From Hephaestia sp. MAHUQ-44 (GTDB taxonomy: Bacteria; Pseudomonadota; Alphaproteobacteria; Sphingomonadales; Sphingomonadaceae), in the NCBI RefSeq assembly GCF_023806085.1, contig NZ_JAMSLX010000005.1, positions 186,001 through 250,000 of the forward strand: a DNA stretch of 64,000 nt. The letters run 5' to 3'. The first letter of the stretch is position 1, and each line of letters opens with the position of its first letter. The notes under the pieces were generated by a model, which was given only the letters and a program-made list of their open reading frames with translations, had not been told where the DNA came from and searched no databases. Below are positions 61,870 through 64,000 of this stretch, piece after piece. A program made the position numbers and the translations under genes.

Positions 61870-61977
61870 CGCAGGTCATCCGCCGCCATGACCTGCCAGC
61901 CAGGCCCATCGCGGCGTCTAGCAGATGCCCGACGCATTTCCCACCGGCGCGCCCCGCGCCGAAACGAACATGCCGGA

Positions 61978-62117
61978 AATGAAAAGGCGGGGCCGCAGCC
62001 CCGCCCTTATTTGGTGCAGTCAAGCTGCTTGTTAACAGCTGGCCCGCGATCTCTGAGATCAAACTCGTCTCACGCGAATGAAACGAAGTCAAGAGCCAGC
62101 CGCAACCAAGAGTCAAT
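61978..62117 (-). ncRNA. tracrRNA of the type II-C CRISPR system, possibly a long natural single-guide form
   Basis: Reading the minus strand 5' to 3': a 12-nt segment ATTGACTCTTGG (62117-62106) identical to a site in the cas9 promoter; a repeat-like segment starting GTTGCGGCTGGC; a hairpin around TTCGCG; the anti-repeat ending GGGCCAGCTGTTAAC (62045-62031); the nexus hairpin CAAG-CAG-CTTG (62031-62021); AAATAAG; and a GC terminator with T4. GCTGGC of the repeat-like part pairs with GCCAGC of the anti-repeat, and GTTG with TAAC/CAAT around it. The 3' half as tracrRNA is well supported; the 5' half as a guide-bearing tracr-L analogue is a hypothesis. The 5' end is unknown. Confidence 0.75.
61982..62006 (-). 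terminator. Intrinsic terminator of the tracrRNA
   Basis: On the minus strand an 8-bp stem GGCGGGGC / GCCCCGCC with a TGCG loop is followed by TTTTCATTT. It also shields the HAD gene at 61869 from the tracrRNA transcript. Confidence 0.88.
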
Positions 62118-62271
62118 GGCAATCGCCGAAGCAGTTACGCATGCCCTTGAGCCGGATGCGGGGTTGGATTTTCCGCCTCCTGCACAATGATGATTCATAG
62201 CTTTCCGGCTACTAGCGGCCTCATCCGCGGTATGGGCTCGCGGTCAGGCTACGCATCCTTGTGTTGCACCC

Positions 62272-62300
62272 CTTATCAACCGATATATGCCGATTGTCAA
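62272..62300 (-). promoter_or_regulatory. Predicted minus-strand promoter toward the tracrRNA
   Basis: Minus-strand TTGACA (62295-62300, perfect -35) and GATAAG (62272-62277) are 17 bp apart. The start would be near 62265, giving about 150 nt before the guide-like segment; a second, closer promoter may exist but none is convincing. Its -35 overlaps the -35 of the predicted cas9 promoter. Confidence 0.5.
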
Positions 62301-62322
62301 TCTCCAAGAGTCAATATTTTAT
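62294..62322 (+). promoter_or_regulatory. cas9: Predicted cas9 promoter
   Basis: TTGTCA (62294-62299) and TTTTAT (62317-62322) with a 17-bp spacer match a sigma70 promoter in five and four of six positions. Transcription would start near 62329, leaving a leader of about 120 nt before the cas9 ATG. The -35 lies in the perfect palindrome GATTG-T-CAATC (62292-62302). The spacer contains the 12-bp sequence shared with the tracrRNA 5' region. Confidence 0.5.
62304..62315. promoter_or_regulatory. Candidate target of the tracrRNA natural guide, inside the cas9 promoter
   Basis: CCAAGAGTCAAT is identical to 62106-62117, the bases directly 5' of the repeat-like part of the tracrRNA on the minus strand. 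Here it lies between the predicted -35 and -10 of cas9. On the guide-identical strand the flank on the PAM side reads GAGATTGAC. Confidence 0.55.
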
Positions 62323-62337
62323 GAGCCTCAACCACTA

Positions 62338-62389
62338 CATGGTGATCAATCTGATGGGAAGCAGCGCATGGTGGTCAATCTGCTAGGGA
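62338..62389 (+). repeat. Imperfect tandem direct repeat in the cas9 leader
   Basis: CATGGTGATCAATCTGATGGG (62338-62358, split here only by size) recurs with about three mismatches as CATGGTGGTCAATCTGCTAG and GGG from 62367, a 29-bp offset. The shared core TCAATCTG also follows the cas9 -35 in relaxed form (GTCAATCT at 62297). Its role is unknown. Confidence 0.55.
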
Positions 62390-62448
62390 GGGGCGAGAAG
62401 CTTGCGCAAATACGATTGAATAATAGTCTGTTCGCGGGGGAGAACAAT

Positions 62449-64000
62449 ATGCGGAGACTCGGACTCGACATCGGCACCAACAGCATCGGCTGGTGTCTCA
62501 TCGAAGACGATGAGCGGATCATCGACATCGGCGTGCGCATCTTCAGCGATGGGCGCGATCCCAAATCGGGCGCCAGCCTTGCGGTCGATCGCCGCGAGGC
62601 GCGGGCGATGCGGCGGCGCCGCGATCGCTATATCGGGCGGCGCTCGGCGTTTCTCGACAGCCTTGTCGATTATGGGTTGATGCCCGCCGACAGCGACGAG
62701 GCCAAATTGGTCGCCGAGCGCGATCCCTATGCGATCCGCGCCCGCGCGCTGACCGAACGGCTGGAGCCGTATGAGATCGGCCGGGCGCTGTTCCACCTCA
62801 ACCAGCGGCGCGGGTTCAAATCGAACCGCAAGGCCGATCGGCGCGTCAAAGACAATGAGGACGGCAAGATCGCGAGCGGCGCCAAGGCGCTCGATCAGGC
62901 GATGGCCGAGAGCGGCGCCGACACGCTCGGCCAGTTTCTGGCCGGCCGCGACCAGAAGCGCGTCCGGCTCGACAGCGACGCCCAAGGCTATGATTTCTAC
63001 CCGCAACGCCGCCATATCGACTATGAATTCGGCCGCATCTGGGAAGAGCAAGCGACGCACCATCCTGCCCTGCTGACCGACGAGGCGCGCGCCGCGCTGC
63101 ACCGCATCCTGTTCTTCCAGCGCCCGCTCAAGGAAGCGGTGGTCGGCGTGTGCACCTTCGTCCAGACCGAACGCCGGCTGCCCAAGGCGCATCCGCTGTT
63201 CCAGCAACGGCGGCTCTATGAAGAGGTCAACCAGCTCGAGATCACCACACCGGGCGAGGCCCCGCGCAAGCTGACGCTCGACCAGCGCGATGCGTTGATC
63301 CTCGAACTACGCGGCAAGCGGAAGGTGGCGTTCTCCACGCTCGCACGCCGCCTCAAGCTCCAGCCGGGCGAGAGCTTCAACAAGGCGAGCGAGACGCGCA
63401 CCGATCTGGCGGGTGACGAGGTCCATGCCGTGCTTGCCGACAAGAAGCGCTTCGGCAAAGCCTGGGCGCATCTGCCCGCCGAGCGCCAATGGACGATCAT
63501 CGCGCGACTGATCGACGAGGAAGACCCCGACGCGCTCCATATGTTCCTGACCGAGGAATGCGGGCTGGACGACGAGGCCGCGCGCAACACCGCCAAGGCG
63601 CCGCTGCCCGAGGGCCATGGGCGGCTGGGCGAGACCGCGACGCGGCGCATCCTCGACGAATTGCGGCGTGAGGTCATCACCTATGACGAGGCGGTGCGGC
63701 GCGCCGGCTGGCATCATTCGGACGACCGCACCAGTAAGAGTCTGGACTGCCTGCCTTATTATGGCGAGTTGCTGGCGCGCGACATTCCGCCGGGCAGCCA
63801 ACTCGCCACCGATCCGCCCGAGAAGCGGTTCGGCAAGATCACCAACCCCACGGTGCATATCGGGCTGCGGCAGCTCGAAAAACTGGTCAATGCGATCATC
63901 GCCATCCACGGCAAACCCGACCAGATCGTTGTCGAACTCGCGCGCGAATTGAAGCTCAACGAGAAAGACCGCGCCGAGCACGATCGCCGCATCCACCGCG
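62449..64000 (+). CDS. cas9: CRISPR-associated endonuclease Cas9, type II-C (5' part; continues past window end)
   Basis: RNA-guided DNA endonuclease, here the first 517 codons. The ATG at 62449 has GGGGGAG six bases upstream. RuvC-I is at the very N-terminus, MRRLGLDIGTNSIGWCLIED, with catalytic Asp7. The arginine-rich bridge helix is RREARAMRRRRDRYIGRRSA (49-66). A compact REC lobe follows, with LNQRRGFKSNRKA at 117-129. RuvC-II is IVVELARELKLN with catalytic Glu496. The position of RuvC-II matches small type II-C enzymes, so the full protein should be about 1050-1100 residues, with HNH and PAM-interacting domains beyond the window. No frameshift in the visible part. It is the first gene of its strand, with cas1/cas2 and the array expected downstream. 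Confidence 0.95.
   Translation, partial: MRRLGLDIGTNSIGWCLIEDDERIIDIGVRIFSDGRDPKSGASLAVDRREARAMRRRRDRYIGRRSAFLDSLVDYGLMPADSDEAKLVAERDPYAIRARALTERLEPYEIGRALFHLNQRRGFKSNRKADRRVKDNEDGKIASGAKALDQAMAESGADTLGQFLAGRDQKRVRLDSDAQGYDFYPQRRHIDYEFGRIWEEQATHHPALLTDEARAALHRILFFQRPLKEAVVGVCTFVQTERRLPKAHPLFQQRRLYEEVNQLEITTPGEAPRKLTLDQRDALILELRGKRKVAFSTLARRLKLQPGESFNKASETRTDLAGDEVHAVLADKKRFGKAWAHLPAERQWTIIARLIDEEDPDALHMFLTEECGLDDEAARNTAKAPLPEGHGRLGETATRRILDELRREVITYDEAVRRAGWHHSDDRTSKSLDCLPYYGELLARDIPPGSQLATDPPEKRFGKITNPTVHIGLRQLEKLVNAIIAIHGKPDQIVVELARELKLNEKDRAEHDRRIHR

Follow-up and report, generated by a model that had tools for sequence, protein, structure and literature searches.

A candidate self-aimed long tracrRNA upstream of cas9 in a type II-C locus of Hephaestia and its alphaproteobacterial relatives

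In clustered regularly interspaced short palindromic repeats (CRISPR)-Cas loci of type II-C, can the trans-activating CRISPR RNA (tracrRNA) also serve as a guide against the gene of its own Cas9? The question is raised by a locus at the end of a 64,000-nucleotide stretch of the Hephaestia sp. MAHUQ-44 genome (contig NZ_JAMSLX010000005.1, positions 186,001 to 250,000, or G000:C9:186001-250000 in our numbering; hereafter the window), where a tracrRNA is encoded upstream of cas9 on the opposite strand. On the strand of the tracrRNA, the anti-repeat is preceded by a truncated CRISPR repeat copy, and the 11 nucleotides directly before that copy recur exactly in the DNA upstream of cas9. On the strength of this arrangement and of its recurrence in related loci, we consider it very probable that a long form of the tracrRNA acts as a natural single guide that directs Cas9 to sequence upstream of the cas9 gene, repressing it.

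The features of the locus are collected in Table 1. An earlier note on this DNA had recognized the tracrRNA by its anti-repeat, nexus hairpin and four-T terminator, and all three are found where it placed them; it had also expected the array repeat to pair with the anti-repeat segment, and the pairing with the repeat GTTGCGGTTGGCCCTCGATCTCTGAGCTGCTAACCC reaches -45.1 kcal/mol. Its forecast for the start of that repeat, GTTGCGGCTGGC, agrees with the true repeat at 11 of 12 positions and is wrong at one. The note's reading of the locus is thus supported as far as it went but was incomplete, having missed the repeat-like element, the 11-nt guide and the site upstream of cas9. The element GTTGCGGCTGGC lies 46 nt before the anti-repeat on the tracrRNA strand and is immediately preceded by the guide ATTGACTCTTG, whose identical target is located 133 nt before the cas9 start. 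When followed by NRG, ATTGACTCTTG occurs only once in the 3.5-Mb genome, at this target. In the predicted fold of the RNA from the guide onward, the element is paired with the anti-repeat and is followed by the nexus and the terminator stem (-57.7 kcal/mol); none of 200 shuffled sequences was equally stable from guide to terminator (z -3.88). The predicted anatomy is that of a single-guide RNA, and also that of the long tracrRNA (tracr-L) of Streptococcus pyogenes, which is described as matching, over 11 nt, a site flanked by a protospacer-adjacent motif (PAM) in the promoter region of the cas genes (PMC8616872, PMC11417352). Two traits of tracr-L are seen here, namely a repeat-like segment 5' of the anti-repeat in one putative RNA with a predicted joint fold, and a short guide matching the cas9 upstream region at 11 of 11 positions.

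Table 1. Positions of the tracrRNA, guide, target and cas9 features in the window.
Feature	Positions	Strand	Remark
Terminator stem and T4	61982..62005	-	GC-rich stem, then T4
Nexus hairpin CAAG-CAG-CTTG	62021..62031	-	where the earlier note placed it
Anti-repeat of tracrRNA	62031..62060	-	pairs with array repeat
TTGACT, possible -35 box of short tracrRNA	62087..62092	-	inferred from the sequence
Repeat-like element GTTGCGGCTGGC, truncated CRISPR repeat start	62095..62106	-	11/12 identical
Guide ATTGACTCTTG (11 nt) in the proposed long tracrRNA	62107..62117	-	directly before the element
PAM position 3' of the target, GAG	62302..62304	-	relatives mostly NGG
Target ATTGACTCTTG upstream of cas9	62305..62315	-	identical to guide, 11/11
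cas9	62449..64000 at window edge, on to L002:7616 (= window 65616)	+	1055 aa

We also surveyed relatives of this Cas9. These were drawn from 295 genomes of the genus, 397 of the family and 396 of the order (24, 23 and 32 with a match; the Hephaestia genome itself and some others fall in more than one draw), with the best 80 of 486 named loci added. The nexus motif TAACAAG was found on the minus strand upstream of cas9 in 119 of 144 loci (98 distinct), and the other 25 were left out, 22 having no TAACAAG upstream and three no upstream DNA. A guide/target pair is present in 25 of 90 alphaproteobacterial loci. This count leaves out L055 and L010, which match at 9 of 11 positions but also match their own reverse complement; it includes L012 (a match with a 1-nt gap) and L101 (8 of 11, with a GGG flank), both added by eye, as well as L064, counted at 9 of 11 though its 18-nt match stops 2 nt before the element.

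In a scan that assumed no guide length, 17 of 98 loci had an exact word of at least 11 nt common to the zone before the anti-repeat and the remainder of the cas9 upstream region; in 14 of them it corresponds to the stretch that precedes the repeat-like element, or to the complement of that stretch, and in three (L058, L081 and L128) it belongs to other inverted repeats. Guide/target scoring covered 95 regions, after L014, L028 and L087 had been dropped. A repeat-like element reached the loose score of 14, itself attained by 34% of shuffled zones, in 57 of them, and the preceding guide matched its own upstream region at all 11 positions in 13 loci and at 10 in seven. When guides were swapped between loci, matches of at least 10 of 11 were obtained in 18 of 3192 pairs, versus 20 of 57 for own targets. 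Among the 22 loci reaching the strict score, ten matched at 11 positions, five at 10, three at 9 and four at 7, while other 11-mers from the same zones of these loci matched at 10 or more in 50 of 2224 cases.

The bases next to the targets were not used in the matching, and NGG lies 3' of 17 of the 20 best targets against a background of 6.9% (P about 2e-17 on the assumption of independent loci, which does not fully hold for related ones). The three other flanks are GAG in the window, AGC in L099 and GGA in L061. Targets occur in both orientations, and several flanks continue as NGGNATTGA. Matching stops at 11 nt: over 23 pairs, 59 of the 207 cells at positions 12-20 from the PAM are matches, which is near chance, and position 12 matches once in the 13 perfect pairs. 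Only the upper edge of this limit is informative, because positions 1-11 were the ones chosen for matching. Guide and target also change together. The window's guide ATTGACTCTTG corresponds to ATTGGCTCTTA in L008 (on the same contig as Stakelama marina L098), and the two targets carry the same two differences. Among the supported sister Cas9s L061/L064, L063/L123 and L008/L011, the guides differ within each pair and every guide has a target of its own, although L063 and L011 match at 10 of 11 and L064 at 9 of 11.

Two further searches concerned spacers and an unmatched guide. In a search for the PAM by way of spacers, none of 50,697 phage records matched the array L033 or L029. Against the 295 same-genus genomes, L033 returned other arrays and three solitary repeats, with no protospacer among the matches inspected. 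These solitary repeats are of the same type and lie in same-genus genomes without a Cas9 match (L192, G286:C1:1222045; L193, G022:C1:1298349; L194, G258:C4:117629); L193 has a degenerate second repeat start. Six reading frames beside L192 and L193 comprised one phage-family match of unknown function and otherwise ordinary enzymes and membrane proteins. The solitary repeats may be orphan remnants or repeat mimics. The unmatched guide of L075 has one site with one mismatch in its own genome, and as by our estimate about five such sites are expected by chance, we draw no conclusion from it.

How might such an RNA work? A long form would start upstream of position 62117 and comprise the guide, the truncated repeat, the anti-repeat, the nexus and the terminator, with a short tracrRNA made besides. 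If the long form is transcribed and loaded into Cas9, its 11 base pairs with the target should allow binding without cutting, being enough to bind and too few to cut, so that Cas9 would repress its own operon; the target site would then presumably lie within an active cas9 promoter. In type II-A systems, short and long tracrRNA forms are reported to come from two promoters (PMC8616872, PMC11417352, PMC12216829), and a putative -35 box of a short form sits here between the element and the anti-repeat. Of 29 loci with a repeat-like element (a set picked by eye and used for the TTGAC, hairpin and repeat-origin counts; L138 is a doubtful member), 25 have TTGAC in this interval. A terminator scan lists the Table 1 stem on the plus strand, the four-T tail of the minus strand being below the limit of the scan. 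Searches of the locus against Rfam gave no match at gathering score, the sole Rfam listing in the window being a tRNA elsewhere; SorY and Collinsella-1 hits over the tracrRNA region (E 6.7 and 9.2) fell far under their gathering scores and were put down to chance.

Hairpins with a conserved loop close to TCCACA or TCCAAA and stems of varied sequence were also observed on the tracrRNA strand 5' of the element. They lie 54-72 nt from it in L008, L064, L112, L121, L123, L136, L146, L149, L162 and L164, with further ones at 104-146 nt in L112, L116, L136, L139, L149 and L162. Such hairpins occur in 12 of the 29 loci with an element (5660 bases) versus 4 of 61 without (11958 bases); of the 24 such hairpins in the 80 named loci, 12 are at most 700 nt upstream of cas9. 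Rfam gave no match for the upstream hairpin region of L136. Perhaps the long tracrRNA has a longer leader, to which these hairpins would belong.

Several observations weigh against self-repression by a long tracrRNA. The target in the window is flanked by GAG rather than NGG. For EHCas9, a related II-C Cas9, an NGG PAM was established by experiment, with both G residues described as needed for cleavage (PMC10281378); the finding makes NGG more credible for related enzymes and the GAG site less so. A promoter scan of 61960-62480 found no full promoter consensus, and a weak terminator-like stem was flagged on the tracrRNA strand at 62087-62064, between the element and the anti-repeat. Among the relatives, four of the 22 strict-score loci have no matching site before cas9, and L090, the nearest Cas9 to that of the window, has a short intergenic region and no guide/target pair. 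The GAG flank, together with its looking one base shorter than the flank of L008 and the lack of a pair in L090, would also suit a decaying relic, that is, a lineage that was once self-aimed, has lost its PAM in the window and no longer represses itself. We think this unlikely for the window, as its 11-nt match is still perfect and S. pyogenes Cas9 is reported to tolerate NAG at a lower level (PMC11417352).

The guide and element could alternatively be cut out as a short CRISPR RNA (crRNA) and work in trans with the short tracrRNA, a one-spacer mini-array that would have the same outcome of bringing Cas9 to its own upstream region. A core of the full repeat can indeed be recognized in the element of L162 (14 of 14 positions), L061 (12), L058 (11), L016 (11) and L013 (10). 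In the other loci with a usable array repeat (four loci left out), the core is not above shuffles, and what is left of the repeat in the window and most tested loci is no more than its first 12-14 nt. With the element also in cis with the anti-repeat and the two joined in a stable predicted fold, processing as a mini-array seems distinctly improbable. We give hardly any credence to a third account, by which the shared word is a repeated site for a regulator protein or a chance duplication. Both copies do lie in intergenic DNA expected to hold promoters, and the inverted repeats of L058, L081 and L128 show that other repeated words occur in some such regions. Yet the words differ between loci and directly precede the element, the far copy is so often followed by NGG, and the swap and same-zone controls are far lower.

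The system that would be controlled in this way is real and intact, and is by gene content an ordinary type II-C locus, as the earlier note had it. The bases adjoining the window were examined as L002, in which window position equals L002 position plus 58000. The cas9 frame begins at 62449 and continues intact beyond the window (L002:4449-7616); it matches the Cas9 family TIGR01865 at 589 bits and contains Pfam HNH (HNH_4) and RuvC_III domains. D7 and E496, noted as intact, are invariant across nine aligned relatives. A type II cas1 (TIGR03639) and cas2 follow, and 73 nt after cas2 comes the array, so that everything expected past position 64000 is present in the order cas9-cas1-cas2-array. 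Neither a repeat lacking complementarity to the anti-repeat nor a cas9 broken downstream, the outcomes named beforehand as telling against the note, was found. Neither csn2 nor cas4 is part of the locus, whose only cas genes are cas9, cas1 and cas2. The II-C assignment is one of gene content, since PADLOC Cas9 models name II-A, II-B and II-C jointly and our Cas9 tree comprises relatives only.

The array (L002:9013-9640) has nine full 36-bp repeats and one degenerate repeat, with the crRNA sense of the repeat on the minus strand, and comes with a matching tracrRNA. The degenerate repeat (L002:9603-9640) sits at the end away from cas2 and the crRNA sense runs towards cas2, so the crRNA transcript seems to have its 5' end on the side of the array opposite the presumed leader. 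Elsewhere in the survey, L025/L028 and L050 (G219:C1:1372038-1373021) have an internally deleted cas9, a 412-aa frame matching query residues 1-186 and 607-739, and have kept the tracrRNA and a short array.

In the Cas9 tree of 90 loci (L027, L082 and L143, with short frames, and further fragments were left out), the 25 loci with a pair appear scattered by eye; a group test compared only 29 labelled rows and is uninformative about scatter. A later draw across the phylum found Cas9 in 29 of 299 genomes, with 21 loci examined, 16 of them with an array. One of the seven alphaproteobacterial loci among these 16, L244, fits the pattern, with an element at 11 of 12, the guide AAGCGAGACTA and an 11/11 target before cas9 flanked by GGG. 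L246 has an element-like stretch at 10 of 12 and no shared word longer than 7 nt, and the other five reach at most 8 of 12. The nine loci of other classes, with 43-140 nt between cas9 and the anti-repeat, reach at most 8 of 12 and share no word above 8 nt, the longest being a run of A. Within this sample, the feature is alphaproteobacterial. From its resemblance to the repeat, we infer that a stray CRISPR repeat gave rise to the element and was shortened later. The chances seem to us evenly divided on a wider scenario in which self-aimed single guides arise and are replaced repeatedly in alphaproteobacterial II-C systems. A stray repeat would land before the tracrRNA, the preceding 11 nt would come to match a PAM-flanked site upstream of cas9, and the repeat would shrink until just the 12-14 nt required in a single guide were left. 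The 11-nt limit would be held from both sides, by binding and by the avoidance of cutting, giving a lineage-specific and fast-changing lock of guide and target, and II-A and II-C would have reached the same 11-nt solution.

According to a 2021 review, some II-A systems have a tracr-L, which is not found outside II-A (PMC8616872), and the II-C gene content here puts a tracr-L-like RNA outside that described range. We found no tracrRNA self-repression in II-C among the literature matches listed (titles and abstract openings), and an earlier mention is possible. The likeness to the S. pyogenes II-A system as described lies in the long tracrRNA, the 11-nt match upstream of the cas genes and, in the relatives, the NGG PAM. 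Unlike that system, the locus here is alphaproteobacterial and lacks csn2, targets lie on either strand, guides change between sister lineages, and the function is a prediction. The EHCas9 system shares the II-C gene order, the tracrRNA upstream of cas9 and the NGG PAM, and its closest homologues are likewise in Alphaproteobacteria, but the available text on it does not mention a long self-aimed tracrRNA (PMC10281378). Neisseria meningitidis scaRNA is another regulatory small RNA of a type II-C locus; unlike the RNA proposed here, it is described as a post-transcriptional regulator of efeUOB, with no cas9-upstream guide mentioned in the available text (PMC13431127).

If our reading is correct, II-A is not alone in having Cas9 controlled by its own tracrRNA: such control also evolved in II-C, or was retained there and rebuilt. 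The numerous guide/target pairs found in nature would then be a ready experiment on the guide length that permits binding without cutting, and would reveal the PAMs of uncharacterized Cas9s from genome sequence alone. The loci would also hint at a route by which CRISPR repeats give rise to single-guide RNAs. When tracr-L control is lost in II-A, Cas9 and immunity are reported to rise at a fitness cost (PMC12216829), and in Alphaproteobacteria these loci would accordingly offer a handle on spacer uptake.
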